From positions 1-64,000 of the forward strand of contig PJAB01000001.1 in NCBI GenBank assembly GCA_002887195.1: a stretch of DNA of 64,000 bases, read 5' to 3'. This DNA is from Chrysochromulina parva (Eukaryota > Haptophyta > Prymnesiales > Chrysochromulinaceae). Position 1 is the stretch's first letter. The number at the start of each line of letters is the position of its first letter. A program made the translations under genes and the position numbers. Positions 4,025 through 59,735 of this stretch are shown here, one piece after another. The notes beneath the pieces are model-generated. The model made no database searches. It saw only the letters and a program-made list of their open reading frames with translations, and had not been told where the DNA came from.

Positions 4025-6391
4025 TCATTCTCGAGCTGCGGGCGATCCTCTCGTTGGGATGCTCCATACCTGAGAGATCGCTCCACCCGAGAGGCCGTTT
4101 TCGGCAAGCACCACGTGAGCTTCTTTCTCACTCGGCCGCGCTCGTCGTGCGTGGCGCTCCTCCTGTGCAATCAACGGTATGGGACCGTGCGGCACGATCG
4201 GCCTCCCCCGATCGTCGAGTTTGACGAAGCTTGTACTCGAGTTGAGCAACTTGGCTTGCAAGGCGCCCGCCATGGCCTCCATCCTGGTGAACCTGCCCAG
4301 CTGTGGGCTCAGCTGCTCAGTTGCCTGGCCCGCAGACCCAGGGCGGCGAGAGGATGCTGACCAGAGGGCGTCGCCGCGGTTCGGGGGGGACGATGGGCAC
4401 ATTCTCTGGCCGATCATGAAGGTGGGCGAGGAGTCGCACCGATGTAGCTCCGCGTGACGCTGCCGCTGCCATTGCTCCCACTGTTCGGCGCCCCTGCGCT
4501 GTTCCGACGCCTTGCTCCGCGCGTGCTGCGCTTTCAGAAGCATCGAGCGCGTGCTCCGGTCGAGGATGCGAGTGAGCCGCGAGCTCGAGCGAGGCGCCGT
4601 GCCGGGCGAGGGGTCCGCGCTGAGAGCACCGCTGAGAGCTTCGGGCACGGCCCAGCTCTTCTGATCGCCAGCTAATCCCAGGTGCTTCGCGGCCTCGCTC
4701 CGGTGGGCACGAGGCTTTAGCCGTGGGTGCAGGATGGCCGCCCCAGACAACCATCTCTCGAGCTCCAGCACGCTCACCTCGTCGTTGGAGCCTTCTTCAC
4801 GTCCGTTTCGATCGATGGCCGCCACGACGTGGAAAGCACTGAGCGCGACGGAACGCACCTCTTGCTGCCACAGCTGGCGAAGCGCCATGGACGCCGCCGC
4901 CGACGAGCTCATGAAGAAGAGTTCCATGTGATGCAGGTACTCAGACTCGCTCAGTTGACCGTCGCCCGATCGATCCCACGCCTTGATGACATCGGCTACC
5001 TTGACGTCGTGGACCTTGAAGTTCTGGCGCAGCAGCGAGCGAAACGTCTCCACATCCCACTCGATGTCGCCGAGGGCCCATGCTGCGCCCGGGGGAGGCT
5101 GCAACGAGAGCCGACGCACCACAAGGCTTCGCCGATCGTGCGCGTGACGGCGGCCACGCACGAATTCGAAGAGCTCATCGAAGCCGATCGAACCAGAACG
5201 GTCGAGGTCGATGGACTCAAACACGGCATCGAGCTCCCAGGGCTTCGCGTGGCACTTGAAGAGAGTCTTGAGGGTCGTCTGGAACTCCATCTCGTCGATG
5301 AGCTGCTCGCGATCCGAGTTGAAAAGGGCCATCACATCCACGATGGCCGCGCCGCTGCCACTGAGCAGCGCGTGTAACTCCACGCGCACGCCGGCTGCGT
5401 CGCGCGCTCGTATGGCCCAATCTTTCGTTTTCGAGCGCAAATCCGACGCCCCCTCGGCACTGAGCGCGGCCTCGGCGCCGGCAAGCAGCACCATGCAGAG
5501 CATCTCCTTGGCGCGGGCCGAGAGCCTCCGGTTCTCACTATGGCGCTTGACGAGTTCCTCAATACCTTCAAGCTTGATGACGCCTCGTCGCTCCTCATCG
5601 AGTGACGGAAAGATCTTGCGAGCTTCCCCACCGAAGCCGACGCTCGCGCACAGCCGCTCGAACTCGTTGTAGTCGAGCGATCCTGTTTGGAGCCGGTCGA
5701 ACTTGGCAAACTTGTCGTGCAGACCGCCCTGGCCGTGCTTCATGCACCAAGCGAAGAATTCGTTCTTCGTCAATGTCTTGTCGCCGTCGGTATCGGCCTC
5801 GTCGAACCACCTGCGGATGCCCTCGACGCCGACGGCCTCTCGTACGAGTCGAGGGAAATTCGCGTGGAACTCTTCGAAGTCGAGCGTGAGATCGCCGTCG
5901 CGATCCTTCTCTTCGAAGCGCATCGAAGCTCGCTCGGCCAACATCCGTGTATTCAGCTCCGCCGAGGAACCGGACGTGTATACAGTCGGCTCCGCACGCC
6001 ACGTCGGCTCAGGGATCCGGGCCTTTGCCTTCTGGCTACGCACCATCTGCAGCTGCTGCAGCACTGCGAAGGCACGCTGCCTCTCGCCAGCCCCGTCGCC
6101 AGCATCGGGCGAGCTGTACAAAGCTCGGCATCGCTTTTCGATTAGACGGACCTCGATGGCCTTTATGATCGGCGTGTTGCGTGGCTGCACGGATGGCGTT
6201 TGGATGGGTGGCTTTGGCCGCGATGGTGGTGGCCGCGATGGTGGTGGCCGCATCGGTGGTGGCCGCGACGGTGCGAGCCAGGACTTGAGGAGGACGGGTT
6301 CCCTATACACGACCCCAGCTCGGCCATATCCTTTGAATAAGGGCTGCGCCACAGCACTGGCCTGGGTGCCCTCGGGTGTCCCGCGCGACAT
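4025..6391 (-). CDS. Multi-EF-hand calcium-binding protein, Pro-rich N-terminus
   Basis: An intact 788-aa frame from ATG at 6391. The N-terminus has a Pro/Arg repeat (PPPSRPPPSRPKPP, residues about 40-62). Canonical or near-canonical EF-hand loops follow: DRDGDLTLDFEE (about 163), DTDGDKTLTKNE (about 200), DLDRSGSIGFDE (about 395) and DRSGDGQLSESE (about 473). Degenerate loops lie between them (DRLQTGSLDYNE, DEERRGVIKLEG). The C-terminal third is basic and low in complexity. No signal peptide or membrane segment is seen, so a cytosolic or axonemal Ca2+ sensor is likely. It is the first of five EF-hand genes in this window. The precise family is not recognised. Confidence 0.8.
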   Translation of the reverse strand: MSRGTPEGTQASAVAQPLFKGYGRAGVVYREPVLLKSWLAPSRPPPMRPPPSRPPPSRPKPPIQTPSVQPRNTPIIKAIEVRLIEKRCRALYSSPDAGDGAGERQRAFAVLQQLQMVRSQKAKARIPEPTWRAEPTVYTSGSSAELNTRMLAERASMRFEEKDRDGDLTLDFEEFHANFPRLVREAVGVEGIRRWFDEADTDGDKTLTKNEFFAWCMKHGQGGLHDKFAKFDRLQTGSLDYNEFERLCASVGFGGEARKIFPSLDEERRGVIKLEGIEELVKRHSENRRLSARAKEMLCMVLLAGAEAALSAEGASDLRSKTKDWAIRARDAAGVRVELHALLSGSGAAIVDVMALFNSDREQLIDEMEFQTTLKTLFKCHAKPWELDAVFESIDLDRSGSIGFDELFEFVRGRRHAHDRRSLVVRRLSLQPPPGAAWALGDIEWDVETFRSLLRQNFKVHDVKVADVIKAWDRSGDGQLSESEYLHHMELFFMSSSAAASMALRQLWQQEVRSVALSAFHVVAAIDRNGREEGSNDEVSVLELERWLSGAAILHPRLKPRAHRSEAAKHLGLAGDQKSWAVPEALSGALSADPSPGTAPRSSSRLTRILDRSTRSMLLKAQHARSKASEQRRGAEQWEQWQRQRHAELHRCDSSPTFMIGQRMCPSSPPNRGDALWSASSRRPGSAGQATEQLSPQLGRFTRMEAMAGALQAKLLNSSTSFVKLDDRGRPIVPHGPIPLIAQEERHARRARPSEKEAHVVLAENGLSGGAISQVWSIPTRGSPAARE
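6217..6276. repeat. 15-bp tandem repeat coding Pro/Arg motif
   Basis: Four copies of a GGCCGCGATGGTGGT-like 15-mer lie inside the EF-hand gene. On the coding strand they encode the repeated R-P-P-P-(S/M) block near the N-terminus, a likely site of length variation. Confidence 0.7.
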
Positions 6392-7154
6392 GCGGGGCCG
6401 TGCAGTCGGAAGCTAGGAGAGGGTGTAACGTGTGCGTGTCATCGCTGCCTGTAGCATGCATTATATTGCGAACCCGTTTCTTCTGACTTTGAGTTGAAGT
6501 GAGTGAAGTGTGAACGAAGATTTTGCACTGCTGGCGCATACCGGCTGTGTGCGATCTCTCCTGTGTGCTTGACCCCGGGGCTGCAGACCGCGCTCGGCGC
6601 TTACGGGCGAGATGCTATTTGGACGTCCGGTCGAGGTAACATGGTATTGGTAACTACAAAAGATGGCGTCGCGTCCTCCATCCGGAATGAAAAGATACAA
6701 TGCTATTGCGATCAACGCAACTCAGGAATCAGGCTGTCTCAGGCCGTGTTTAGCTTTTCCAGAGGAGCTCTCCAGGATCTAGTTCTAGAGCGTAGCGGTC
6801 GGGTGGAGTATGTTAGTCGAGTACAAAAGCTCAACCCAATGAACCGCACAGGCTCCTAGCCGTACGTTTTCCTCGCCCTGCTCGTCAGCCAAGCGTCGCG
6901 GAGGGTGGAATCTTAGTATTTTTAATACCACCACATCGCGCGACGGCCGACGGGCAAATAGACGACAGAGTCACGCCACCCCTCGTTCACACCTAGCCCA
7001 GGCCGAGTCAGCTGTCACACCGCGCGAGCGTCGCCCTCGAAGGCCACGCTCCCAGTACCCGATACCGAACCATAAAAAACCACTCGCACGATAGCTTGGC
7101 TTCGAAGCATGGCTCTCCTTCTCGACTCTGCACTCTCGCCAGGGAGCCACCATT
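6392..7154. other. Intergenic, no supported gene
   Basis: The region lies between the 5' end of the EF-hand gene and the 3' end of the phosphotransferase gene. Short open frames occur but show no recognisable domain. Composition is less GC-rich than the flanking genes around 6600-6900. Confidence 0.5.
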
Positions 7155-10324: not shown

Positions 10325-13300
10325 CTAACGGACCTTTGGCGGCAACTTCGGCGGCAGGCCCAGGAACTTGGGCTGCGGCGCACCCCCAAGCGAAGGTAGT
10401 GATGAGCTCCCTCGCATTGGGCGCACGGTTGAGCTCGTGACTGCATGCATGCTTGGATTCGGTGTGTTTCTACGGCTCGCCTCCCGGCTCTCGGGCCTAA
10501 TCTCGGGCCTTATCTCGGGCCGGGTCACCTCCTGGCTCTCCTCATTAGGCGCCGTGATGGGCGCCCACATGACGCCCTGCTGCGCCGACGAGGGTGGCGG
10601 CGGCTCTGGCGGCGCCTCGCCGCGGTTGAGGGAGGGGCGTGACGCAGACTGCGCCATCATGAGCTCGCGCGCCTCGCCAGCACCCCGCGTGCGCTGCACC
10701 GGCTGCGCGGTGCTCGCGCGGCTGGGCGAGCGTTGGCTGATCCTGGGCGACGTCATGCGGCTCTCGAGACGGCTCACGTCCTCGACAAAGGGCGTCGCAA
10801 CACGGCCTGGCGAGTAGGAGCGCCCCGGCCATTGTAACTTGCCCTGCTTCTCGAGACGCCCGACGAGCCTTTCGGACTCGTACAGTGGCATCATGCGCCC
10901 GCCGCCGAGTCGGAAGCCCGCCGCCGCGTCCCAGACCGCGTGACCCGCGGGGATGGGAGAGCGCAGCAGCTGCATCTGTATGTCGGCGAGCATACGCCGC
11001 TTGAATTCCGCCTTCTGCTGCGAGACGAGGCGGCACTTGGCACGTTCCTCCGCCTCGCGCTGCATCTCTTCCTGCCGGCGCAGCAGGCGCTTGGCCATGG
11101 CCGCCTCTTGCTGCGCCTGAGCCTCGATGCGTCCACGCAAGCGCTCCTCCAGGAAGCTCGCGTACACAGCGCGCTCTTCTTCGGTTCCGAGCGCGAGCAG
11201 GTAGAGCGGCTTGCGCGCGCCGTTCTGATCGAGGACTGCCTTGGGGCGCGGCCGGCGCATCGCGACGCTTGCCGGGCGCGGTCGCGATGAGTCGAGTAGC
11301 TGGCTGATCAGCCCCTTGACGAAGAGCGAGAACTCGTTGACGTGGATCTGGTTCGAGTCGTCGCCATCGATCGCGCACCAGAGGGCTTTCAGTCGGTCCT
11401 CGGTGAGTCGTCCCTTTTTGATCTGCAGCTTCTTGCGGATGACCGCCTCGAACTCGTCGAAAGTGATGAAGCCGGAGCCGTCGGTGTCGACGTCGGCAAA
11501 CAGGTTGCCGATGCCGTGCAGGCCCTTGCTCTGCAGCTGGAGTGAGTCCTCGAGCTTCTGGTTCACAAGGAGGGAGAGGTCCGTTAATTCCTCCTCTGTG
11601 AGCGGAGGCGCCTCGAGGCTCGCTCGCATCTCGGCGGTGGGCGTGCATGCAAGCGCCGTCCCGAGCCTCAAGGCGCCGAATGTGGACTCCTTGGCCTTGT
11701 CGCGCTTGTACACGCCACGGTGGATCGCCGGAGCGGCCAGCCGGAGGAACCTGGCGAACTCGTCGCGCTGCAGCTGGTTGGAGTTGTCTGCATCGAGTGC
11801 GCACCAGAGTGATCCCAGGCGCTCCTCGGGCATCTCCTTCTTGCTCATGTGGAGATGCTTTCGCGCCACGTCGGTGAACTCATCGAAGGTGATCATGCCC
11901 GAGTTATCCTTATCAACTTCCTTGAACCTGTCGTTTAGAAGGGGGGGGTGGCGACGCCAAATCGATCGGCGAGGAGTGGCAAGGGAGTAGGTGTGTCGAC
12001 CGGGGGCAAGGCGTGGAAATGGACGTAGGTGGCGACCGGGCTTGTGCAAGGCGTGGCAATTGAGGGGCGGGAGGGCGGGGGAGGGGGGGAAGGGCGAGGG
12101 AGGGGGAGGGCGGGAGGGCGGGGGGGCGGACTCACAGGCTAAACCAGCTGTGCGTGTTCTTGTTCTTGTTGTACGCCGACTGCTCGAGCCTCTCATTAAA
12201 GCTCTTCGAGAGCGCGTGGAGGTCTTCCTTGGTGAGCGCCGCCACACCCCCGGCCTCGAGTTTGGCACGCATCTCGGCCGTGGGGGTGGAGGCAAGAGCG
12301 CGCCCGATTCCAGCGGTGTGCAAGCCCCCGAGCTCGATCTTCTTGATCGAGCTCGGCGCCAACTTGGCTTTCTTCTCGACGGCACCTTGCTTTAGCCACT
12401 TGCCCATCTCCTGCGGCATGATCTGGTTCGAGTCGTCCGCATCCAGCGCGCACCAGATCGCCTTGACACGCTCATCCGAGATGACCTTCTTCGGCTGCTT
12501 GAGTTTGTGACGAATCACGTCTTCGAACTCGTCGAACGTGATGTAGCCCGATCCGTCATCGTCGATCTCCTTGAACAGATTGAACCAGCTGTGCGTGCTG
12601 CGGTTGGACGCATAGATCGAGGCCTCGAGCCACTCGTTGAATTGCTTGCTCAGCTCAAGCATCTGGTCCTCAGTCAACGGCGCCTCGAGCTTCGCACGCA
12701 GCTCGGCCGTAGGAGTCGATTCGAGCGCGCGATCGAGCCCAGCAGTCTGCGCGCCGCCGAGCTCAATCTTCTTCTTGTTCAGGTTGTCGGGGCCCCTGGA
12801 CTTGAACTCGTGAGGGATCATCTTGAGAAAGCTGCCCATCTCCTGCGGCATGATCTGATTCGAGTCGTCGGCATCCAGATGGCACCAGAGCGCCATGACT
12901 GTGTCATCCGACATTGCGCTCGGACCCTTTTTGAGCTTATGACGGATGACGTCCACCAACTCGTCGAACGTGATGTAACCAGAGCCTGTGGATCGATGCC
13001 CACATGCATGCGCGCGGTTGGAAGACGCCGGCAGCAGGAGGGTACACGAGGGCTGTGCGGAGGAGATCCACGGCGCGCGAGCGCGCGCGTGGGTCTGAAA
13101 GGCTACTCAAAGACGGGGGCGTATGCCATACCGTCCTTATCAGCCTCCTTGAAGAGATTGAACCACGAATGGATCGATTTCGACTGCTTGTGCAGGTGCT
13201 CCTCAAGCCACCCGGTGAGCTTCGAGGAGAGGTCTTTGATTTGCTCCTGGGTGAGCTCGATCGCGAGGTCCGCGCGCATCGCGGCGGTCGGCAGCGCAGG

Positions 13301-16300
13301 GCCCTCGAGGCTCGACTTGCGCGTCTTGAAGTCTGGTTTCTTGGCTCGCTCGACCTTTCCATACTTGAGGAACATGGCCATCTCATCGGGCGTCACCTGG
13401 TTCGAGTCGTCCAAGTCGAGGGCGCACCATAGACCGGTGAGCGCCTCGTCCGAAAGCGCTGACTGCCCAATCTCGAGCTTGCGACGCAGCACGTCCTTGA
13501 ACCTGGGTGTGGCGAGGCGAGGCAAGTAGCGGAAATCAGTACGAGCAAACGCCTCACGTGAGCAGCAGCAGGCACTGCAGCGCCGGAGCGACCAGGTTGG
13601 AGGGGCACACCAGACGCTGTGCACGGCTGGAGGAAGCGAGTGTGGGCGCTGTGTGCTGCTGAGGCGGCTCACTCGTCCCACGTGATGAATCCCGATCCAT
13701 CCTTGTCGATTTCCCGAAAGAGCTGGTAGGCCGATGTGACTTCGATGCTCTTCTTGTGCAGCGACTCGGTCAACTTGAGGTTGAGCGTCTTCTGGAGCTC
13801 GATGAGCTCCTCAGGGCTGAGCTCTGCCTTGAGGCTGGCGCGCAGCACCGCGGTCTGCGTGCACTCGAGCGCGCGGCCCTTGGCGAGGTCGGCCGAGCCA
13901 CCGAGCTCAATCTTCTTCTTGTTCAGATTTGAGGGTCCCTTGCCCATCTTGATGCTCTCGCCCCCGGCACGCTTGAGGAATTTGCCCATCTCCTGCGGCA
14001 TGATCTGATTCGAGTCGTCGGAATCGAGCGCGCACCAGAGCGCCCTGAGCTTCTCATCCGACAGGAAGCTCGGACCCTTTTTGGCCTTGCGGCGCAGGAT
14101 GTCTTCGAGCTCGTCAAAGGTGATGAAGCCGGAACCTGGGCAGACAGATCGGATGCACATGTACACGCGCGGTTGGCACACGCCGATAAAGGGGCGCGCA
14201 CATATGAGGGGCATGTACACACACACACACAGGCTCACAGCGCAAGTACGCGTCGATTGGAGAGGCTGTGCTGTGTGCGCCATACCGTCTTCATCCGCCT
14301 CCTTGAACAGGTTGAACCACGAATGGGTCGCCATGTTCTTCTTGTACATGAGCTCCTCGAGCCATCCCGTCACCTTCTTGGACAGGTCATCGAGCTCCGC
14401 CTCAGTCAACGGCGCCTCGAGCTTCGCTCGCATCTCGGCCGTAGGAGTCGATTCGAGCGCGCGACCGAGCCCGGCGGTCTGCGCGCCGCCGAGCTCAATG
14501 TTCCTCTTGTTCAGGTTCTTAGGTGCCTTAGAGGTCACCTCATCCGCACCTTGCTTGAGCCACTTGCCCATCTCCTGCGGCATGATCTGGTTCGAGTCGT
14601 CCGTATCCAGCGCGCACCAGATGGCACGCACGGTCTCGTCCGGCACCTTCTTGACGCTCTGGCCGAGGCGGTGGCGCACCACGTCTTCAAACTCATCAAA
14701 CGTCACGAACCCCGAGCCATCTTCGTCGATCTCGGAGAAGAGATTGAACCAGGTATGCACCGAGAGGTTCTTCTTGTAGAGCGACATCTCAAGCCACTTG
14801 CAAAACTGTTTTGCCCACCCAAGCATCTGGTCCTCAGTCAACGGCGCCTCGAGCTTCGCACGCAGCTCGGCCGTGGGCGTCGATTCGAGCGCGCGATCGA
14901 GCCCAGCAGTCTGCGCGCCGCCGAGCTCAATGGTCCTCTTGTTCAGGTTGGCGGGCGCCTTGGACTTGAAATCGGACGCGCCGCGCCGCAGGAAGGCGCC
15001 AAACTCCTGAGGGTAGACCTGGTTAGAATCATCGGCGTCGATGGCGCACCAGAGGGCAATGAGCGTATCTTCGCTTACCGCCGACGGGCCCTTTTTGAGG
15101 CGCCGGCGGAGCACGTCCTCAAACTCGTCGTCTGTGAGAGAGGGAGGGGGGGTCGCAGGGGGGACGGCGGGGGGTGAGGGCCCATCAGGAGTAGTCAGGA
15201 GGTGCCGCAGGCTGAGCTCCTGCAGGTGTCGACAGTGCTGGCGGAGGGAGAGAGCCACAGAGTTGCCAACTTGGCAGCCATTCAGGCTCGGCTGGCTTTG
15301 GCTATTGGTTCGGTGAGTGCATCTCTGCACGCGGCCACACATGTAATGAAGCCCGAGGCGTCTTCGTCAGCCTCGCTGAAGAGGTTGTACCAGCTGTGCA
15401 CCGACTGATTCTTCTGAGCCAGCAACTCCTCCATCCACCGGCACATCTTGCGCGAGAGGTCGTTGAGCTCCTCCTCGGTGAGCTCCGCCTCGAGCTTCGC
15501 ACGCAGCTCGGCCGTAGGAGTCGATTCGAGCGCGCGACCGAGCCCGGCGGTCTGCGCGCCGCCGAGCTCAATGGTCCTCTTGTTCAGGTTCTCTTGGCCC
15601 CTGGATTTCTGCAGGTTCCGCTTGAGGAACTTGCTCATCTCTTGCGGCAAGATCTCGTTCGAGTCATCCGCGTCCAGATGGCACCAGAGCGCATGCAGCT
15701 TGTCGTCCGACAGCTCGCTCGAACCCTTTTTGAGCCTGAGGCGCACCACGTTCTGGAACTCGTCGAGCGTGATCACGCCATCGCCGTCGAGATCGGCATC
15801 GTTGAATAGATTATACCACGAGTGGATGGACTTGCTCTGAGCCCGGAGCGACTCGGCGAGCCACTCACATAGCTTCTGGCTGAGCTCCGTGAGCTCGTCC
15901 TCACCGAGCGGCGCTTCAAGCTTCGCACGCAGCTCGGCCGTGGGCGTCGATTCGAGCGCGCGACCGAGCCCGGCAGTCTGCGCGCCGCCGAGCTCAATGG
16001 TCCTCTTGTTCAGGTTGTCGGGGCCCTTGGCCTTGATGAAGCCACCGCTGCGCCTTAGGAATTTTCCAAACTCCTCGGGCACCACCTGGTTGCTATTGTC
16101 AGCGTCGAGCGAGCACCAGAGCTGCTGCAGCTTGCTATCCGAGAGGACGCTCGAGTCCTTGTGCAGCGTATTCCGCACCACAGTCTGCAGCTCGTCGAAG
16201 GTAATGAAGCCAGAGCCTGCGGAAAGGTGCACATGCACGAGTGCTGTCAGCCCGAGGATGTGTGCAAAGGCCCAAGGCGGATGCGCAGGGATCGGCGAAG

Positions 16301-16562
16301 CGGGGGGGGGAGGAGGAGCACGCGAGCAGCGTGCCACACCGTCCGCGTCAGCAGCGCGAAAGAGCGAGTACCAATTCTGCATGGGCTGGTTTTTCTTCTG
16401 AAGGCTCTCCTCAAGCCACACGATCATCTCTTTGGACAGCGCCGTCAGCTCCTCGTCCGTGATCTCCGCATCTAGACTTGTCCGCATCTCAGCTGTGGGA
16501 GTGCAATCGAGAGCACGACCCCTGGCGGCATCCGCAGCGTCGTTGGCGGACATGGCGGCCAT
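10325..16562 (-). CDS. Giant modular EF-hand protein: ten tandem EF-hand-pair modules
   Basis: Seven exons can be assembled on the minus strand: 16562..16340, 16216..15341, 15131..14286, 14135..13673, 13502..13132, 12985..12136 and 11927..10325. All six introns are GT-AG. The exon lengths add up to 5232 nt, an exact multiple of three, giving 1743 aa from ATG 16562 (MAAMSANDAADAARGRALD). The protein is ten copies of a module of about 135 residues. Each has a spacer (ELGGAQTAGLGRALESTPTA, then a helix ending HSWFNLFKEA), an EF-hand of the type DxDGSGFITFDEF, a linker, and a second loop of the type DADDSNQIMPQEM. The C-terminal 400 residues are different: basic, coiled-coil-prone (RLLRRQEEMQREAEERAK) and then disordered. 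No signal peptide is seen. A large cytosolic or cytoskeletal Ca2+ buffer or sensor is a fair inference; no named homologue is recognised. Confidence 0.85.
11928..12135 (-). other. Intron 6 of the EF-hand module gene, with G-rich tract
   Basis: GT-AG intron of 208 nt joining HSWFSL and FKEVDKDNSG. Bases 12060-12129 are nearly pure G with A/C interruptions on the plus strand (many GGG runs), so the transcript side is a C-rich pyrimidine tract. The plus strand could form G-quadruplexes. Confidence 0.75.
14214..14233. repeat. (CA)n microsatellite in intron
   Basis: A short CA dinucleotide run lies inside the 150-nt intron 14136-14285 of the EF-hand module gene. Confidence 0.7.
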
Positions 16563-24041: not shown

Positions 24042-24311
24042 CGATTTTCCCCGTCGGACTGTCGGGCGCACCTGGCGACATGGAGATTGTGGATATGCGG
24101 ATAGTTTTGTGGATGCCGGAACTTGAGATACTCCCTTATCGGATTCTACATGTATCAGAAGAAGCCATGCAAACATGAGGGGAACACGCAGCGTCGTGTT
24201 GAACGCAAACGTCTCCACGTGGAATTCCCGTTGTGTTGGTTGCCCGTTACGCCTTTGTGGGGCGAGCTGTGGGCGTCTTGTCTGCGTTGGCGCACCCAGC
24301 AGTTCCTCGGC

Positions 24312-26075
24312 ATGAGCGGCGCGATCACCGGGCGCGCGCCGCGCACGACCGGTTTCACGTCCTTCACCACGCCCGATGGTGTCGGGCCGGGCTCGTACGT
24401 CAAGCAAACTGACCGTGAGGTGCCAGTCCACGGCTTTGCGCCGTTCTCCTCGACGACTGAACGTGCGGGTGTCATTGCAAAGGGGTCCGAGAAGCTGCCT
24501 GGACCGGGCGCTTACACGACGACTTTCGACAACACGCTTGGGCGAACCCCATTGCAGCCCAACGGCGTACCATCCGGCGCAGGCGCCTCATTTTCGAGCA
24601 AGGTAACTCGAATTCCCGGCGGGCTCAACACTTTGGCTTCGCAACCTGGCCCAGGGCAGTACGAGGTGGCGCCGGCTGCGCAGTTGTTTGAGCGCGTCGG
24701 TAAGCCATCGCTCGCTGGCGGCGCAGGCAGGCGCGCGACGCCGAAGCCAGTGCGTCAGGGCCCACCCTCCATCCCCGTAAGGGAGCAGAGCTTTGGCTAC
24801 GAGGACGCTGGCACAGGCGAGCTCCGCATGCAGCAGCCGCCAGAGGGCGGGTACTCGGGCGTGAGCGGGCGCCGATCTGCCGGCCCTGGAGAGTACGAGC
24901 CGACCAAAGCGACCGCGCTCATCAAGCCTGCGCCCATATGTCCCAATTTTGGCAACAGTCGCGTGCTGCGTGCCGTCTTTGCCGAGAGCTCTGATACGCC
25001 CGGGCCGGGCGCATACACCTCAGCAGAAGCTGACGGGCGCCGCGTGAAATCTTCGGCCAACTTCCTCTCGCGAACGCCGCTCGCATACCAGAAGCTGATC
25101 GATCCGGAGAAGCTCGTGCCCGGCCCCGGCTCGTACAGTGCGCCGCCGAGCATCGTGCCGAAGGCGGTGCCCGAGAACCTGCAAGCCTTCGGCTCGACGC
25201 AGAAGCGTCTCTCGTCCGACGCTCTGACGCCCTTTGAGCGGGCTCGGATGGCCCAGCCCGGCCCGGGCGCCTACGAGGAGCGACGCACCCTAGCCGGCGC
25301 CGTGGGCGCCACGCAGCCCGGCACATTGGCCCAGCCCCCCACCGCTGAGCGCGCTGGCCGCTCTGGGTTCAACTCGTCCACAGTGCGCTTCATCCCTCTT
25401 CAGAAGGGTGACAAGCCTGGACCGGGGCAGTACGATGCCAACGATCAGCAGTCCTTCGTGGCTGCACTCGGTCGCAAGCCACACGGTCGAAATGGCGTCT
25501 TCGGCTCCACGACGCGCCGCTTCCATGCGCTCAAGCAAGACCCCGTGCCCGGCGCAGGCGCTTACAATCCGGTCACGCCGGGCGAAAACGAGGCCGAGCG
25601 CGATGAGGGGCCTTCGTCCGCGTTCGCGTCCGGGGTGCAGCGGTTCACGAAGAGCGCGCCGACGCGCGTCTCCTCCAAGACCGGGCGTGACAAGGATCCA
25701 GTGCCTCCGCCGTGGCAGTACTACCCCCGCACAGACAACGCGTGGGAGGGGACCCATGTGCACCAGGGCGCGGCCTCTGCCAAGCAGAACCGTACGTTCC
25801 TCTCGACGGTGGAGCGATTCCCGGCGGGCGAGATGGGCGGCGGCACAAAAATCCCCACAGGCCCAGGGCCTGGCCAGTACGCGCCCAAGCATCCGCACGA
25901 CGGCTTCCGCAAGCAGCAGACGACTGCGATGTGCTTCGGCACCAAGGAAGGGCGCTTCGACGGGCCACGTGGCGTCTTCTCGGGCGTGGCGCCCACCCCT
26001 GGCCCCGGCCAGTACGAATCCGCGGAGATCTTCGACCCGCTGATCAAGCGCTCGTTCAACATCACGATCGGCTAG
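24312..26075 (+). CDS. Sperm-tail PG-rich repeat (SHIPPO) protein
   Basis: A 587-aa protein from ATG 24312 (MSGAITGRAPRTTGF). The upstream part of the open frame starts at TTG and overlaps the divergent transporter's 5' end, so it was excluded. About twelve PG-rich repeats can be counted, such as GVGPGSYVK, LPGPGAYTT, QPGPGQYEV, TPGPGAYTS, VPGPGSYSA, KPGPGQYDA, VPGAGAYNP, GPGPGQYAP and TPGPGQYES. This family (ODF3/CIMAP-like) binds flagellar microtubules and marks flagellated organisms. No introns are needed. The next gene on the same strand, GCP4, is also a microtubule gene. Confidence 0.9.
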   Translation: MSGAITGRAPRTTGFTSFTTPDGVGPGSYVKQTDREVPVHGFAPFSSTTERAGVIAKGSEKLPGPGAYTTTFDNTLGRTPLQPNGVPSGAGASFSSKVTRIPGGLNTLASQPGPGQYEVAPAAQLFERVGKPSLAGGAGRRATPKPVRQGPPSIPVREQSFGYEDAGTGELRMQQPPEGGYSGVSGRRSAGPGEYEPTKATALIKPAPICPNFGNSRVLRAVFAESSDTPGPGAYTSAEADGRRVKSSANFLSRTPLAYQKLIDPEKLVPGPGSYSAPPSIVPKAVPENLQAFGSTQKRLSSDALTPFERARMAQPGPGAYEERRTLAGAVGATQPGTLAQPPTAERAGRSGFNSSTVRFIPLQKGDKPGPGQYDANDQQSFVAALGRKPHGRNGVFGSTTRRFHALKQDPVPGAGAYNPVTPGENEAERDEGPSSAFASGVQRFTKSAPTRVSSKTGRDKDPVPPPWQYYPRTDNAWEGTHVHQGAASAKQNRTFLSTVERFPAGEMGGGTKIPTGPGPGQYAPKHPHDGFRKQQTTAMCFGTKEGRFDGPRGVFSGVAPTPGPGQYESAEIFDPLIKRSFNITIG

Positions 26076-26768
26076 GCTCACGCGGAGGGACTGCTGCGCC
26101 GTTGCGAGTCCTCCGAGATATGCTCCGAGATATGCTCCGAGAGCGAGAGCCGAGCCTTGTCGACGCCAGTGGATATGGTTGCCGAGCGGAGCGCGTGGAG
26201 TCTGGAGACTCCCCCTATTGGGAGGCTTGCCCTCTCAAGAGGAGAGGGGCGGAGACTCGCGCGTGGGAAGTGAAGCGCCCGCCTCTGAGCTCTGTGGCCA
26301 CGCAGATGGAAGCTGCGCTGTCATGTGATAGAGATTCATTCATTGGACTGGCGTGGGGACTGACAAGGGACGCCACGGTGAAGGTGAGGCGTTTTGAGGT
26401 GTGTCGGCTTCCATCGCCACTGGTGCAGGCACTTTGTAGACACAACGCGGAACGCGTGGCGCGTTATTTTCTGCCCGCAATTTGCCCCCGCCCTCGCCCA
26501 CGCCTCGTTTTTCGGACGCACCATTGCAGATTGCACCCCGCGCCACTGCACTCTGCAGAATCGCTGCTCGTCCGACGGGGCGTCGACGGCGACGCTCAGG
26601 CGATGCGTCACGCGACCCGGCGCGGCGCGGGCGCGGGCGTCGCGTCGTTGCTCGTTAAGTTGCTCGTTCCTAAACACGATTGGCCTGTGTGGAAGACAAG
26701 TGTGAAGAGGGCTTGGGCGACAAATTCCTCAGGGTTCCGGCGGCCTCGTCCGGGCCCGACAGACGAAG
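26076..26768. other. Intergenic upstream of GCP4, no gene seen
   Basis: About 690 bp with a short direct repeat GAGATATGCTCC (twice, about 26117-26140). No supported coding region. Confidence 0.5.
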
Positions 26769-29279
26769 ATGGTCCTCCAGCGCGAGGTGCTCTACAGCCT
26801 CCTCGGTTACACGGGCCGCGTGGTCGTCGAGGTGGCGCCCGGCCAGCTCGAGCTCGCCGCTGGCCTGCCGCTCGTCGATGCTTCCGAGCACGCGCTCGTC
26901 CGGCGGCTGCTCGTGCTCGGCGGCTGCTACTGCGTACTTGACGCCTTCGTGTCGTCGCAGCTTGTGAGCTGCGACGGCGGCGAAGACGGCCGTCAGGGCA
27001 CACGCCGATCGCGCGGCGCGTACGTCGTCGCCTTCGCGCACGGCCTCGACGAGTGCCTTCAGCCGTACCGGGCGCGCGTGCTTGACCTGGAGCAGCAGCT
27101 TCTGCGCTCGCCCGCCCTCTCGCTTGCGGCGCTGCAGCTGGGCTTCGGCGAATTTGAGCTCACGCTGCCCGCACTGCGCCGGCTGCTCGAGGACGTCGAG
27201 CACCGACAGCTGCGCGGCGTCGCGCTCCTCGACTTTCTGCACGACGAGGTCGCCAGCTGCACGCACTCCTTACGTGACGCGTTGCGCGTGCTCGTGCGGC
27301 ATGCGCAGCGCGTGCTGCGCTCGCAGCTGGCTGCGTGGCTGCTGCACGGCGAGTTGCTGCCCGGCGACGGCGACTTCTTCATCGAGCGTGCCAAGCCACC
27401 CGCCGCTCACGCCCACTCGGCTGCTGCTGCTGCCGCAGGCGAGGCGGGCGCTGCTGCTGCTGCAGCTGCGAACTGCCTCGAACGTTCGAATGCCAGCGGC
27501 GCCTCTCCTGGCGCCGGCGCTGCTGCAGCGGGCACATCGAACGCGGCCACGGATGATGACGGCGCGGTCGGTTGGAGCGCCTTCGAAGTGGACGTGGCGC
27601 GCAAGCCTGCTTCGCTCCCGATGCGCGTGGTGGAGCGCATCCTCTTCATCGGAAAAGCGGTTCGCGTGCTGCGTGCGTCCGAGCAGAAGCAGGCGGACGC
27701 GGCGCGGCTGGCGCTCGTGGCGCGCGACGCGAAGCGGCTCGCCGCTGCGGAGGCAGACGAGCTCGCACCGCCGCTCTCGCCCACCTCGCTTCTCACGGCA
27801 AGGCTCAGCGCAACGTCGCCACCGCGACTCTCGCTGCGCTCGCCGCCGCAGCAACTGTCGTCGGTGCCGAGCCCACGAAGCCCGGCGCTTCAACCCGAGG
27901 CGGCGGCGGCGGCGGGCGTGGGCGGCGTGGCGAGTGCGCGCGCCATGCTCGCGGCGGCTGAGGCGTCTCTTGAGGCGGCCGAGCTGCGGCAGCAGCAGGC
28001 GGCGGTCGCTGAGGTACATGCCGAGGCGGAGGGTCTCGCCGCCCTCAGGGCGCTCTCTCGAGGGCGTCGTCGCGGGCATACGGGCGGCGCCGTGGATGAG
28101 GGAGAGGGTCCGCCGTTGGAGGGCGGCGTCGAAGAGGCGGAGCAGTTGGTGGAGCAGCCTGCCGACGTCGACGGGCGGACGGGGCGCTTCGGTAGCGCCG
28201 TGTTGGGCAGCGCCCACGGTCTGCCGACGGGCTCGCGCGCGTCCGCCTTGATGCGTCGGGAGCTCGAGGCGGCCGCGCATGCGCTGCGACGGCTGCCCAC
28301 GAGCGACGGCCTCGTGCAGCTCGCCCCTCTCGAGGCACTCCTCGCGCGCCTCCACCGGGTCGCGTCCTCCTCGCTCTGGCGCCATCTCACCATCGAAGGA
28401 GGCCTCCTTGACCTGCTGCGCGCGATGAATGGCTACTTTTTGCTCGCCAAGGGCAACGTCTGGCACACGCTGCTCGAGGAGCTGCGCCCTTCGATGGCCG
28501 AGCGCCCGAACGCTCACCTCGACCTGAGCGCAGCGCTGCTGCATGCGACCAGCGCTGAGCCGCCCGAGCCTCACTTGCACGGCCTGCGGCTCGTGCTCCT
28601 CCCGAGCGCTGTACCGGGCGCCTCGGCGTACGAATGCTGGCGAGGCCTGACGCTGACCCTCGCGGTGCCGTGGCCGTTGCAACTGCTGATGCACTCGGCG
28701 TCCATCGCGCGTTATTCGGAACTCTTCCGCTTCCTTCTCCTTGTCAAGCGCGTCCAGCTTGAACTCCAAGCGGCCTGGATCGAGCAGGCGCACTTTTCGC
28801 GCCTACCCGCTGAGCAGCGCGCGCTGCTGCTGCCGCTCTGGCGGCTGCGTGCTCACATGGCCTTCCTCATCGACAACCTGCAGTCCTACCTGATGGTGGA
28901 CGTGCTCGAGGCGCAATGGCAGTCTTTCATGCGCGTCGCTGAGACGTGCGCCGACTTTGAGGCGCTCGCGGGCGCGCACGAGGCGTGCCTGAGCGCGCTG
29001 CACGCGCAGTGCTTTCTACAGGCCTCCTCCGTCGCCACCGCGCTGCACGAGATCTTTCAGCTCTGCCTCGCTCTCTGCCGCATGCTCTCGTACGCCGACC
29101 GGGGCACGCGCGCCGAAGCCGCCTACCGCTCGCAGTTTGCGACCGTCTCGCGCGAGTTCAGCCGGCAGTCGGCCTTCCTCTTCGCCTTCCTGTCCAACAT
29201 GTCCTCGCCGCAGGCGTCGCCCCACCTCGCGCAGCTGTTGCTGCGGCTCAACTTCAACTCCTTCTGGCGCCCCGGGTGA
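26769..29279 (+). CDS. TUBGCP4: Gamma-tubulin complex component 4 (GCP4)
   Basis: A core subunit of the gamma-tubulin ring complex, which nucleates microtubules at centrosomes or basal bodies. The 836-aa frame starts at ATG 26769 with MVLQREVLYSLLGYTG, matching the short N-terminus typical of GCP4. GRIP1 features follow: LRRLLEDVEHRQLRG, LLHGELLPGDGDFFIE, and FEVDVARKPASLPMRVVERI followed by LFIGKAVRVL. GRIP2 then follows (LWRHLTIEGGLLDLLRAMNG, YFLLAKGNVWHTLLEEL). The C-terminus ends ASPHLAQLLLRLNFNSFWRPG. An Ala/Ser-rich insertion at residues about 215-260 and a longer one at about 320-480 make it larger than the usual 660-670 residues. No intron is required. Confidence 0.88.
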   Translation: MVLQREVLYSLLGYTGRVVVEVAPGQLELAAGLPLVDASEHALVRRLLVLGGCYCVLDAFVSSQLVSCDGGEDGRQGTRRSRGAYVVAFAHGLDECLQPYRARVLDLEQQLLRSPALSLAALQLGFGEFELTLPALRRLLEDVEHRQLRGVALLDFLHDEVASCTHSLRDALRVLVRHAQRVLRSQLAAWLLHGELLPGDGDFFIERAKPPAAHAHSAAAAAAGEAGAAAAAAANCLERSNASGASPGAGAAAAGTSNAATDDDGAVGWSAFEVDVARKPASLPMRVVERILFIGKAVRVLRASEQKQADAARLALVARDAKRLAAAEADELAPPLSPTSLLTARLSATSPPRLSLRSPPQQLSSVPSPRSPALQPEAAAAAGVGGVASARAMLAAAEASLEAAELRQQQAAVAEVHAEAEGLAALRALSRGRRRGHTGGAVDEGEGPPLEGGVEEAEQLVEQPADVDGRTGRFGSAVLGSAHGLPTGSRASALMRRELEAAAHALRRLPTSDGLVQLAPLEALLARLHRVASSSLWRHLTIEGGLLDLLRAMNGYFLLAKGNVWHTLLEELRPSMAERPNAHLDLSAALLHATSAEPPEPHLHGLRLVLLPSAVPGASAYECWRGLTLTLAVPWPLQLLMHSASIARYSELFRFLLLVKRVQLELQAAWIEQAHFSRLPAEQRALLLPLWRLRAHMAFLIDNLQSYLMVDVLEAQWQSFMRVAETCADFEALAGAHEACLSALHAQCFLQASSVATALHEIFQLCLALCRMLSYADRGTRAEAAYRSQFATVSREFSRQSAFLFAFLSNMSSPQASPHLAQLLLRLNFNSFWRPG

Positions 29280-29725: not shown

Positions 29726-30340
29726 ATGTCCGCTGTCGTCGCCCTTGCCGCCTCCGTCCAGGCCTTCCAGGCCCCGGTCATGCGCTCGCGCACCGTCCAG
29801 ATGTTCTCCGAGGGTGACCTTGGTGTCCTCCCGCCGCTCGGCGTGTACGACCCGCTCGGCCTCATTGAGACCCGCGACATGCGCCGCTACGAGATCATGG
29901 AGATCAAGCACGGCCGCGCTGCCATGCTTGGCTTCCTCCACGTGATCGCCCTCCACGCGGGCATCTACGTGCCCGGCTACCTGTCCACGTCGGCGAACCT
30001 CAAGTTCTCGGACGTCCCGATCGGCTGCTTCGCGTCCCTCGAGGCCGTTCCCACCGCGGGCTGGCTGCAGATCATGATCCTCACCTGCATGCAGGAGGCG
30101 GGCACCGGCTTCGCCTCCAAGGCGCAGACCGAGGACGGCGAGGCCGGCGACATTGCCCTCGACTCGTGGGTGCGCTATGACGACCCCGAGGTTAAGACCT
30201 TCAAGCTCAACGCCGAGCGCCAGAACGGCCGCGCGGCCATGATGGGCATCACCGGCTGCCTCGTCCACGAGCTCCTCGGCGTCGACGCACTCTACCCGAC
30301 CGGCGGCCTGGGTGGCGCTGCGCCCCCGACCATCTTCTAA
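29726..30340 (+). CDS. Fucoxanthin-chlorophyll-binding light-harvesting protein
   Basis: A thylakoid antenna protein of the FCP/LHC family, 204 aa from ATG 29726. The leader MSAVVALAASVQAFQAP contains the A-F cleavage motif of plastid proteins in red-derived secondary plastids. The two Chl-binding membrane helices with internal symmetry read YEIMEIKHGRAAMLGF (helix 1) and FKLNAERQNGRAAMMG (helix 3). A less conserved middle helix lies between them (GWLQIMILTCMQEAGTG). The C-terminus is typical (TGGLGGAAPP). The open frame extends upstream to 29519 without evidence of coding. Confidence 0.92.
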   Translation: MSAVVALAASVQAFQAPVMRSRTVQMFSEGDLGVLPPLGVYDPLGLIETRDMRRYEIMEIKHGRAAMLGFLHVIALHAGIYVPGYLSTSANLKFSDVPIGCFASLEAVPTAGWLQIMILTCMQEAGTGFASKAQTEDGEAGDIALDSWVRYDDPEVKTFKLNAERQNGRAAMMGITGCLVHELLGVDALYPTGGLGGAAPPTIF

Positions 30341-49698: not shown

Positions 49699-49874
49699 AC
49701 CGCGCGGCGCGGAAACCAAATTTGGTAGGTGAACAGTGATCCGTTGGCGAAGGAGGACCGAGTGGGGGATCAAGCAAGAAGCTAAAAACTCGACTCGCCT
49801 TACGGTTGCGAGCGAAAAGAAGAAGAGCGAAAAGGACGCAAGCATGCTTTGTGGACGTTACATGTTGACTCCAC

Positions 49875-51674
49875 ATGTCAGCTCTGACATGCGGGATAGT
49901 GTACCAGCGCCCCAGACATGATGCATGGCTGCGTGAGAAGCTGATACCTATCGAGGGCAAGCCTGGCTTCTATTATCCGAACAAGGAGCACGCCCTACGA
50001 GCGCGCATACAAGGCCTCCGTGGGCAGGCTGTTGACTCAAACTTCAGGCTGAGTGCGAGCAATGGCATCAGCGTGGCCGACCAGCTCATGCAAGTGCTCG
50101 CAGTGAATCGCGTGCGAGTCATTAATCTGTTCAAGTCGTTCGACGCGAACGCGGACGGCCGGGTGACGCGAATCGAGTTCCACCGCGCGTTCGAGCATTT
50201 GGGCTACGCGGACTATCTGGAGGAGGTGAATGAGCTCTTCCTGAGCCTCGACGAGGACGGCACGGGTGCCATCGAATTCGACGAGCTGCACCGCAAGCTG
50301 CGCCAGACGAGCCCACTCGCCTTGCGGACATCAAGTGCCAGCACCTCGCGGACTTACTCGCGGACCAGCACGCCAGCGGTCGGCGGCATCCGATCGCCGC
50401 GCCCACCATCTTGCACGCAGAGCAGGCGGGGCCCCTCGGCGCTCACCTCGGCGCGCCAAAGCTCCAGCCGCGCCTCCAGCCGCGCGCCTTGCATCATGCC
50501 GGCCCTCTCGTCCACCTACGATGTCGGTTCCTTGTACGATGACTCGCGTCCACGTTGTACGATTCCGATTCATTCGTCAGCCTGGACCAGCGAGACAAGC
50601 TTGCTCGTCAGTTCAGATCTCTTCGAGCTTCGCGACGAGCTGCGCTGGACGCAGGCGCAGCGGCGGCTCTGGGCAAGTCGACGGCAGGCGAATCTCTCTC
50701 GCTTGCAAGGCCTTCGCTGGCTGCAAGGCAAGCGAATGCCAGCTGGGTGCGTGCCACCGTCACTTTCCGACGACCCGCCCCTTTCGCCATCGAACCGCCC
50801 TTTCGCACCCGCGCCGCCGCAGCCGTTCTTTGCGATGCTTCCCACAGAGGCGATCATCGATGCGCTCGTGCACGAGCGGCTCGAGGAGTCCCTCCGAGCA
50901 CTTCAGACGTCGCGAAAGGCCATCCACACGGCGGAGGTAGAGGAGGAGAAGGCTGCTGAGGAAGGCGCGCGGCGAAATGCTGGCTCAGCCAAAGCAGAGG
51001 CGGAGGCAAGGGCAGCAGAGGAGTCAGAGGCGGCGACGAAGCTGCAGGCTCAAGTGCGCGGCCGTGGCGTGCGCCAACATGCAAGGGAGTCTCGATCGGA
51101 GCCAGAAGGGAGGACGAGCCTGAAGGTCATCGAGCATGCGGAGGAAGCGGCAGCGCCCTTGTCGGAGGAGGCGGCGGCGCCAGTGTCTGAGGAGGCGGCG
51201 CCTGCGTCTGAGGAGGCGGTGCCCGCGTCTGAGCTACAGCCCCGGCCAGAGGAGACGGTGCTCGGGACTGCGGAGGCGGCGCCCCTGAACATCATGGACG
51301 CGCCCATTATGGTCGCGGATGGACCAGGTCACTTACCAGATCACCGCCGGAACTTTGTGGTCATCAGTGTCGATATCGAAGAGTCGAGCCACACGTTCAT
51401 TGAGGTGAATGCACTCTCATCGCCTGACGCACTCGTGACCGTCGCCATCGACATCGAAGAATCATGCCACGCGTCCTTTGAGATCATGAACGCTCTCCCA
51501 GAAGGGCTCGTGAGCATCGAGTTGCCCGTGCGTCCTTCGAGTCGCGCGTCCATGAGACTCGACATGGTCTCTGTCTCTGATGCGCTCGTGAGCGTCGATT
51601 ATCTCGTGCGTCCTTCGAGTCGCGCGTCCGTGAGGCTCGAGACTCTCCCTGACGTCGATGTCGATGCCAACTAG
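49875..51674 (+). CDS. EF-hand and IQ-motif protein with acidic repeat tail
   Basis: A 599-aa protein from ATG 49875 (MSALTCGIVYQRPRHDAW). Two EF-hand loops form a pair: DANADGRVTRIE and DEDGTGAIEFDE (about residues 89-137). A long Ser/Arg-rich region follows. A helix then leads to an IQ-like calmodulin-binding motif, AATKLQAQVRGRGVRQ (about residue 390). After that come SEEAA(A/P)P(A/V) tandem repeats, and two related segments of about 30 residues around VISVDIEESSHTFIEV / VTVAIDIEESCHASFEI and VRPSSRASMRL / VRPSSRASVRL. A Ca2+/calmodulin-regulated scaffold is a fair inference. Confidence 0.7.
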   Translation: MSALTCGIVYQRPRHDAWLREKLIPIEGKPGFYYPNKEHALRARIQGLRGQAVDSNFRLSASNGISVADQLMQVLAVNRVRVINLFKSFDANADGRVTRIEFHRAFEHLGYADYLEEVNELFLSLDEDGTGAIEFDELHRKLRQTSPLALRTSSASTSRTYSRTSTPAVGGIRSPRPPSCTQSRRGPSALTSARQSSSRASSRAPCIMPALSSTYDVGSLYDDSRPRCTIPIHSSAWTSETSLLVSSDLFELRDELRWTQAQRRLWASRRQANLSRLQGLRWLQGKRMPAGCVPPSLSDDPPLSPSNRPFAPAPPQPFFAMLPTEAIIDALVHERLEESLRALQTSRKAIHTAEVEEEKAAEEGARRNAGSAKAEAEARAAEESEAATKLQAQVRGRGVRQHARESRSEPEGRTSLKVIEHAEEAAAPLSEEAAAPVSEEAAPASEEAVPASELQPRPEETVLGTAEAAPLNIMDAPIMVADGPGHLPDHRRNFVVISVDIEESSHTFIEVNALSSPDALVTVAIDIEESCHASFEIMNALPEGLVSIELPVRPSSRASMRLDMVSVSDALVSVDYLVRPSSRASVRLETLPDVDVDAN

Positions 51675-59498: not shown

Positions 59499-59707
59499 CC
59501 CGGCTCCACCCGGTGTAGACCCGGTGTTATTGTAGACCCGGGTAACCGGGTGTTTTTGAACCGGCTACCCATGTGTGTCCCGGCTACCCCCCGGTGTATT
59601 TGAACCGGAACGATGTCCCGGCAGCCCGGTGACTTTTTACCGGCACGATGAATGTGTCCGTGATAGACCCGGCACCCCCCGGGTGTCTTTTTACCGGCAC
59701 GATGAAT
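59499..59707. repeat. Array of imperfect CCCGG-rich repeats
   Basis: About five imperfect copies, spaced some 40-50 bp, of CCCGGC-x-CCCCCCGGTGT-x-TTTTTACCGG. The last two copies continue CACGATGAAT. The array ends about 30 bp before the thioredoxin/EF-hand ATG. The same unit occurs once at 327-352. Confidence 0.75.
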
Positions 59708-59735
59708 CTCGTGGGGCAAGATTGACGAACGAAAG

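Follow-up and report, generated by a model that had tools for sequence, protein, structure and literature searches.

A predicted ten-module, 20-EF-hand protein with a conserved basic tail in the haptophyte Chrysochromulina parva

Background

The gene presented here lies in a 64,000-nt stretch of the genome of the haptophyte Chrysochromulina parva (GenBank assembly GCA_002887195.1, contig PJAB01000001.1, positions 1 to 64,000 of the forward strand; hereafter the window) and is predicted to encode a protein with ten tandem EF-hand modules and a basic C-terminal tail. The closest described systems include the ciliary protein CFAP115 (FAP115), an EF-hand microtubule inner protein of 110 kDa which, according to an excerpt of PMC10105768, is long and thin and has four EF pairs in Tetrahymena, spaced at four pairs per 32 nm, or one pair per 8 nm of microtubule. 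Another is spasmin, given in an excerpt of PMC6398456 as a 20-kDa centrin-related protein.

The same excerpt bears on the haptonema, the coiling of which is described there as taking a few milliseconds, being independent of motors and having an unknown mechanism. Nomura and colleagues report additional protein coating the haptonemal microtubules, and in their model the bundle is put under strain by Ca2+-binding microtubule-associated proteins (MAPs), which turn twist into a coil; centrin at the haptonema tip is the only Ca2+-responsive protein that this excerpt places there (PMC6398456).

Gene model and module array

Computed splicing on the minus strand (window 16562-10325) joins seven exons across six GT-AG introns into a coding sequence (CDS) of 5232 nt, with a predicted product of 1743 amino acids (aa) plus stop, 194.9 kDa. 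The CDS is open up to its final stop, and its alternative frames contain 38 and 56 stops. A second in-frame ATG lies three codons after the start ATG at 16562-16560, and the N-terminus of the predicted protein is similar to that of a database protein, P0042. An earlier sequence-only reading of the window had proposed seven exons, six GT-AG introns and a 5232-nt frame without naming the strand, and all of these were reproduced. The parts of the gene, placed by computed splicing with further evidence in brackets, are as follows.

10325..16562, minus strand: whole gene, start ATG at 16562-16560, stop ending at 10325
16340..16562, minus strand: exon 1, 223 nt
16217..16339, minus strand: intron 1, 123 nt, GT-AG, phase 1, between G and S of D.DGSG in an EF loop, length a multiple of three and stopless in frame (P0035 starts after it)
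15341..16216, minus strand: exon 2, 876 nt
15132..15340, minus strand: intron 2, 209 nt, GT-AG, phase 1 (P0035 ends and P0048 starts about here)
14286..15131, minus strand: exon 3, 846 nt
14136..14285, minus strand: intron 3, 150 nt, GT-AG, phase 1, same D.DGSG position, length a multiple of three and stopless; sequence related to intron 5 (intron comparison)
13673..14135, minus strand: exon 4, 463 nt
13503..13672, minus strand: intron 4, 170 nt, GT-AG, phase 2 (P0027 starts and P0021 ends about here)
13132..13502, minus strand: exon 5, 371 nt
12986..13131, minus strand: intron 5, 146 nt, GT-AG, phase 1, same D.DGSG position (intron comparison)
12136..12985, minus strand: exon 6, 850 nt
11928..12135, minus strand: intron 6, 208 nt, GT-AG, phase 2 (P0027 and P0020 end and P0016-P0018 start about here)
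10325..11927, minus strand: exon 7, 1603 nt

The reading frame alone is no proof of introns 1 and 3, because both have lengths divisible by three and lack an in-frame stop. Comparison with P0021 showed 96.3% identity in the exons flanking intron 3 (414/430) and 77.6% in the intron itself (38/49), with indels. This faster divergence supports intron 3, and the start of P0035 after intron 1 supports intron 1.

The spliced product contains ten modules, located by a module search and, where an intron lies inside, by splicing as well.

15948..16502, minus strand: module 1, intron 1 inside
15522..15947, minus strand: module 2
14881..15521, minus strand: module 3, intron 2 inside
14449..14880, minus strand: module 4
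13861..14448, minus strand: module 5, intron 3 inside
13295..13860, minus strand: module 6, intron 4 inside, short linker
12717..13294, minus strand: module 7, intron 5 inside
12288..12716, minus strand: module 8, chosen for structure prediction
11645..12287, minus strand: module 9, intron 6 inside
11294..11644, minus strand: module 10

The modules start at residues 21, 165, 307, 451, 595, 741, 873, 1017, 1160 and 1305, with periods of 144, 142, 144, 144, 146, 132, 144, 143 and 145 aa, and share 41-73% pairwise identity. Each opens with a short helix (TPTAEMRA.LEA); a longer one follows, and then the two EF-hand loops, at a start-to-start distance of 40 residues. Pfam marks 10 EF-hand_1 and 17 EF-hand_7 stretches in the predicted protein and places it in the EF-hand superfamily (PF00036, 269 bits against a cut-off of 25.4; PF13499, 246 bits against 30). 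The module array is acidic and the tail basic; no membrane-like segment was found in the predicted protein. The sequence-only reading had described ten tandem modules, each a helical spacer plus an EF-hand pair (20 EF-hands), and every one of them is present; its repeat was real, and its figure of 135 residues slightly short of the observed 132-146 aa. The prediction of a single-module structure that it had called for was made for module 8, and the model shows helix-loop-helix.

EF-hand loops

The residues D1, D3, S/D5 and E12, the full usual set of Ca2+ ligands, are present in both loops of every module (20/20). In all ten second loops Asn replaces Gly at position 6, the one departure from a textbook loop. 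Asn tolerates the backbone angle that Gly usually supplies at this point. The sequence-only reading took this second loop to be a distinct and specially kept type with an almost unchanged string. What is unchanged is D.D[DN]SN plus E12; of the ten modules, only 7 and 8 carry DADDSNQIMPQEM itself. Nor is Asn fixed within the family: among 144 complete second loops, taken from 166 module hits in database proteins with near-identical strains kept in, position 6 is N in 108, D in 27, G in 7 and S in 2 (36/144 replaced), and in paralogue frames of the same genome (35 complete loops of 42 hits) it is N in 14, G in 14 and D in 7, leaving 21 of 35 without Asn. A special loop type was rejected because all ligand positions are kept, N6 varies in the family and the first loop is equally conserved (amino-acid identity among modules 0.76 for the first loop and 0.79 for the second). 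The Asn second loop is best described as an ordinary loop with one substitution that is common in the family.

Orthologue pieces and the unity of the gene

Near-identical pieces, P0016 (99%, 98 member sequences) and P0017 (94-96%), start shortly after intron 6. From the assembly labelled 'ncbi' (longest contig 7269 bases), P0035, P0048, P0027 and P0018 are 57-78% identical over their aligned length, intron read-through included, and start or stop right at introns 1, 2, 4 and 6 or no more than about twelve residues away; P0027 carries an in-frame read-through of a 38-residue insertion beside intron 5. A third assembly ('ena', longest contig 7691 bases) provides P0042 (N-terminus and module 1), P0014 (modules 3-7) and P0023 (modules 9 and 10 and part of the tail). 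Judging from the equal longest contigs, the pieces of one assembly would share one contig.

The module order was pieced together from several such fragments, no one of which spans all ten modules. Among 13 module pieces from P0035, P0048, P0014, P0042 and P0023, ten score best at the expected position among the ten window modules, module 1 of P0042 by 152 against 151 bits only. The other three are best with module 5: the first of P0035 (116 bits, against 105 for module 1), the third of P0035, for which module 3 is outside the best four, and the last of P0014 (189, against 181 for module 7). P0027 matches modules 6-9 and P0018 modules 9-10, each at their own positions. P0001, a 'jgi' protein of 1062 aa with 62% identity, follows the order of modules 5-10 plus tail, with the exception of its module 7 equivalent, which agrees better with module 5 (71% vs 65%); its modules 9 and 10 have their closest counterparts in modules 9 and 10 of the window gene (70% and 72%). 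On these scores modules 3, 5 and 7 are simply alike, and the ten-module order seems older than the split of the orthologue lineages.

The ten modules might instead belong to at least two adjacent genes, or the array might be mis-assembled. The gene model is, after all, predicted from sequence alone, and P0020, from a strain very close to that of the window, crosses straight from module 4 to module 8 within an identical linker, as variable array length or assembly collapse would produce; P0020 may itself be a seven-module allele or a collapsed assembly. Against this stand the single open frame across six GT-AG introns, the protein P0021, which has the same first part as P0020 and is not shortened there (it runs m3-m4-m5-m6), and the pieces from first module to tail in the two other assemblies (longest contigs 7269 and 7691 bases). 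We regard several genes or a mis-assembly as very improbable. The earlier claim of one gene stands, with a frame open across six introns and orthologue pieces that keep their order and break near introns, and we consider one real multi-exon gene confirmed at the level of a predicted gene model.

The module family

Of 7990 proteins scored in a search with the whole protein, 11 reached E<=0.001, and one with an alignment of C-terminal halves yielded 40 among 7996; both were length-filtered to 0.55-1.75 of the query. We counted as family members those with two or more copies of a module of about 144 aa made of a TPT..MR..L spacer, a long helix and an EF pair. The window gene has ten such modules, and profile matches were found in P0001-P0010 and in frames of the same genome. 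No full module was found in P0011, P0044, P0045, P0048, P0049, P0050 and P0051, some of which are pieces; P0011, P0050 and P0051 are probably plain EF-hand proteins.

In the genome itself (45.07 Mb, 2199 contigs) a one-module search scored 128 candidates and returned 65 stretches, counting those in the window, from 21 contigs; the weakest of these stretches may be plain EF-hands. Frames were read from twelve fetched stretches. Contig C572 has five modules, one split by an insertion, together with the tail motif, and the modules compared are 97-99% identical to P0008. Five modules and a degenerate tail are found on C361, modules in pieces with the same tail as the window gene on C639, eight module hits with a different tail on C797, four modules on C269, a long N-terminal part with two modules on C554, and two modules on C789. 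Quite different tails or N-terminal parts are joined to the modules in P0009, P0010, L037 and L038. A further 1179-aa frame, L044 (G000:C1050:5000-10500), has three family-like modules and additional EF-hand pair units.

Pfam listed 18 families for the predicted protein at E<=1 and knows the module only as EF-hands. No NCBIfam family rose above its cut-off for three pieces of the window protein; the best model, XopAW (NF041410), has a cut-off of 120 bits and gave them 27-42. P0001 (125 bits) and P0006 (152) do exceed that cut-off, over five and six stretches, which we think is due to summed EF-hands. One scan of viral contigs for relatives produced 107 pattern matches, none of them confirmed. 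No name for the family was seen in the paper listings searched, an open-access subset, and the excerpts on Phaeocystis, on coccolith proteins and on transcripts of haploid E. huxleyi name no such protein. The sequence-only reading knew of no named protein with this architecture and suggested a profile search with the module. Scans against Pfam and NCBIfam found no named family for the architecture, and the first statement holds within the databases searched; the module is not unique, being present in full, with its spacer, at least once in 44 of 51 database proteins and in several genes of the same genome. The EF-hand pair as such is an old kind of domain; Pfam, NCBIfam and the paper listings searched contain no description of the spacer-bearing module, of its ten-fold repetition or of the tail.

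The C-terminal tail

Two features were delimited downstream of module 10.

10325..11293, minus strand: tail, 322 aa, isoelectric point 11.1, rich in S, P and R (computed composition; Pfam has no match for the frame holding it)
10790..11068, minus strand: conserved core of the tail, FKRR.L..I...LLRSPIP...RLGGGR..PLYESERL...LE....WPG (tail alignments and paralogue matches)

In eleven aligned tails five residues never vary (R55, L64, E68, R69 and E75, numbered by the first row); they lie in RSPIP...R[IL]GG.R..PLY[EQ]SER[LM]...E. The motif (RSPIP..RIGG.R..PLY.SERL) was found in the window gene, P0001-P0006, P0008, C572, C639 and, degenerate, C361. It marks only part of the module family, because it was not seen by eye in P0007, P0009, P0010, C797, C269 and C554. 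A tail search of the same genome recovered C572 (E 3.7e-10), C639 (8.7e-8) and, weakly, C473 (0.009); C653 (E 1.2) was rejected as a chance match. The C473 match, L040 (G000:C473:20000-25000), carries the tail motif RLGAPVLTLYQSERLIERMERFSLWEWP in a 182-aa frame (E 0.009), with no EF-hand module in the 5 kb fetched. From this locus, the motif may exist on its own. Searches with the tail gave a single PDB chain (E 0.22) and a Pfam match for one of eleven members (E 0.11), both taken as chance. The tail is probably partly helical.

Copying of modules, linkers and introns

At four-fold degenerate sites coding for the same amino acid, third bases agree at 0.38 in the first loop (n=72) and 0.47 in the second (n=47), against 0.35 expected from composition, and at 0.72 in the linkers (n=265). 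Seven modules were used (1-5, 7 and 8); modules 6, 9 and 10 were excluded for divergent or missing linkers. Recent duplication was rejected as the explanation for the alike EF loops, as third bases are near chance while amino acids agree at 0.76 and 0.79, which suggests that the loops are kept by selection and not by recent copying. For the linkers, which look recently homogenised, that explanation was accepted. Selected loops and homogenised linkers would fit an array that lengthens and shortens by recombination in the linkers.

Introns 1, 3 and 5 interrupt the first loop at the identical codon. Introns 3 and 5 align with a score of 39, above all 500 shuffles (maximum 27), while the other 14 of the 15 intron pairs do not exceed theirs (lowest p 0.066); kinship of intron 1 with introns 3 and 5 was dropped on these grounds. 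Since introns 3 and 5 are related and introns 1, 3 and 5 share one codon position, a module was apparently copied with its intron at least once. Separately, P0048, P0014 and P0023 seem to read through introns at spots in modules 4, 6 and 9 where the window gene has none; two of these are in the first loop (P0048 module 4 and P0023 module 9), and intron positions may recur between modules.

Proposed function

When the model of the tandem modules was compared by Foldseek, all seven significant chains were axonemal (about four proteins), although the model is weak. We propose, tentatively and at somewhat less than an even chance, that the protein is an elongated Ca2+-responsive scaffold on microtubules, probably cytosolic. 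The association with microtubules is suggested because the significant look-alikes are axonemal and the tail is basic; Ca2+ binding (up to 20 Ca2+), microtubule attachment and mechanical effect are all properties that we infer. The tail, and perhaps the spacer helices too, would dock on a partner lattice, perhaps microtubules. Ca2+ loading would then neutralise part of the array's charge and open the EF pairs, and with many modules loaded in register the length, stiffness or contacts and grip of the array could change.

Two other functions must be weighed against this scaffold. One is a soluble, high-capacity Ca2+ buffer, a scaled-up calbindin or secretagogin in which the tail serves for localisation only. 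The full ligand sets in 20 of 20 loops would suit it, as would the lack of a membrane-like segment and the ranks of calbindin-D28K and secretagogin (9-12), the highest of any non-axonemal match to the tandem model. A buffer would, however, have no need of a tail motif that is kept across members with about five to ten modules, and the best matches of P0001 modules 9 and 10 at their own positions indicate that the final modules, at any rate, cannot stand in for others, although some of the rest can. We consider a buffer unlikely. The sequence-only reading had offered a Ca2+ buffer or a contractile or cytoskeletal protein; the cytoskeletal half of that guess is the better supported.

The other is a Ca2+ sensor scaffold of signalling, with no link to microtubules, in which the EF pairs form Ca2+-dependent pockets for partner peptides in the manner of calmodulin. 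The EF pair is indeed calmodulin-like, and modules are combined with differing tails or N-terminal parts (P0009, P0010, L037, L038), yet no kinase, phosphatase, C2 or other signalling domain is among the 18 Pfam families listed, and the significant tandem look-alikes are axonemal. We hold a signalling scaffold to be possible and rather doubtful.

Within the microtubule scaffold proposal, a more specific version would make the family the Ca2+-binding MAPs that drive coiling of the haptonema. Proteins tens of nm long would run alongside the microtubules of the haptonema, anchored by their basic tails; many EF pairs would switch together, so that Ca2+ strains the bundle and twist becomes coil. 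With each EF pair taking up 8 nm, as in CFAP115, the array of ten would cover 80 nm. We judge this haptonemal version improbable, and it seems less likely than a role in an ordinary flagellum. Whether they prove haptonemal, flagellar or neither, these long, tandemly built EF-hand proteins with their basic tail give a concrete, cloneable set of candidates for haptonema MAPs. Apart from the haptonema, they form an EF-hand family without a name, absent as such from Pfam and NCBIfam, with a recognisable tail, several copies in this one genome and an array length that may change.

Genome and window context

A Radial_spoke gene is present in the genome and suggests that the host builds a motile cilium. 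Light-harvesting (LHC) stretches number 58, and two of their frames, L046 and L047, were compared with PDB. L047 scored 310 bits against 9jj8_A/9uen, 294 against 8z11_A, 260 against 9uh3_G and 180 against the next. An excerpt of PMC12716418 identifies both 9UEN and 8Z11 as photosystem I, the former from E. huxleyi and the latter from the haptophyte I. galbana. The L047 scores thus make a haptophyte host very probable. L046 was less clear, with 9vfj in the top four rows and in two more of the first nine, and 9uen and 9jj8 in rows 5 and 6.

Within the window, a light-harvesting (Chloroa_b-bind) stretch lies at 29819-30274 on the plus strand. A SHIPPO-repeat (sperm-tail PG-rich) frame at 24105-26075, plus strand, adjoins a gamma-tubulin complex component frame at 26706-29279, plus strand; both are cytoskeleton or cilium genes. 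One frame at 59706-60803, plus strand, has a thioredoxin domain followed by EF-hands, and two further EF-hand proteins are encoded at 4025-6412, minus strand, and 49869-51674, plus strand. All three of these EF-hand frames were rejected as family members, as the module profile matches their EF-hand part only (19-23 bits).

Comparison with known systems

By build, the predicted protein is set apart from calmodulin, centrin and CDPK (four EF-hands in some 150 aa, alone or fused to a kinase) by its 1743 aa, its 20 EF-hands and the absence of a kinase among the Pfam families listed. It is likewise distinct from the spectraplakins (ACF7/MACF), in which spectrin repeats accompany an EF-hand pair and a microtubule-binding GAR domain after it, with neither GAR nor spectrin among the 18 Pfam families at E<=1; the likeness to 5ve9 is limited to EF pair plus spacer. 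With calbindin-D28K and secretagogin it shares tandem EF-hand pairs in one soluble chain, and these proteins have six EF-hands and neither long spacers nor such a tail. The contractile systems of spasmin and centrin are EF-hand proteins that shorten cell structures on Ca2+, whereas the window protein is a 195-kDa ten-module chain without centrin architecture.

Among axonemal proteins, radial spoke protein 7 (7jtk_M) has EF-hands and is the second PDB chain for the module profile; unlike the window protein, its best stretch is the EF pair only, with no spacer or tail. More generally, the spacer was unmatched by sequence in the best 60 of 427 PDB chains, where the best stretches start at profile position 25 at the least and mostly at 40-48. 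Chain A of 8v3l, a Tetrahymena doublet microtubule inner protein of 1218 aa, superposes poorly on the tandem model (root-mean-square deviation 19 to 29 Å over the tandem, identity 10-18%). The name CFAP115 is not among the best 60 of 427, nor of 251, PDB chains, which is not evidence of absence, and no sequence relation to CFAP115 was seen beyond the EF-hands. Unlike CFAP115, the window protein has ten EF pairs, a module of about 144 aa, a two-helix spacer and a conserved basic tail; like CFAP115, it strings several tandem EF-hand pairs in one chain, which would probably be elongated as well.

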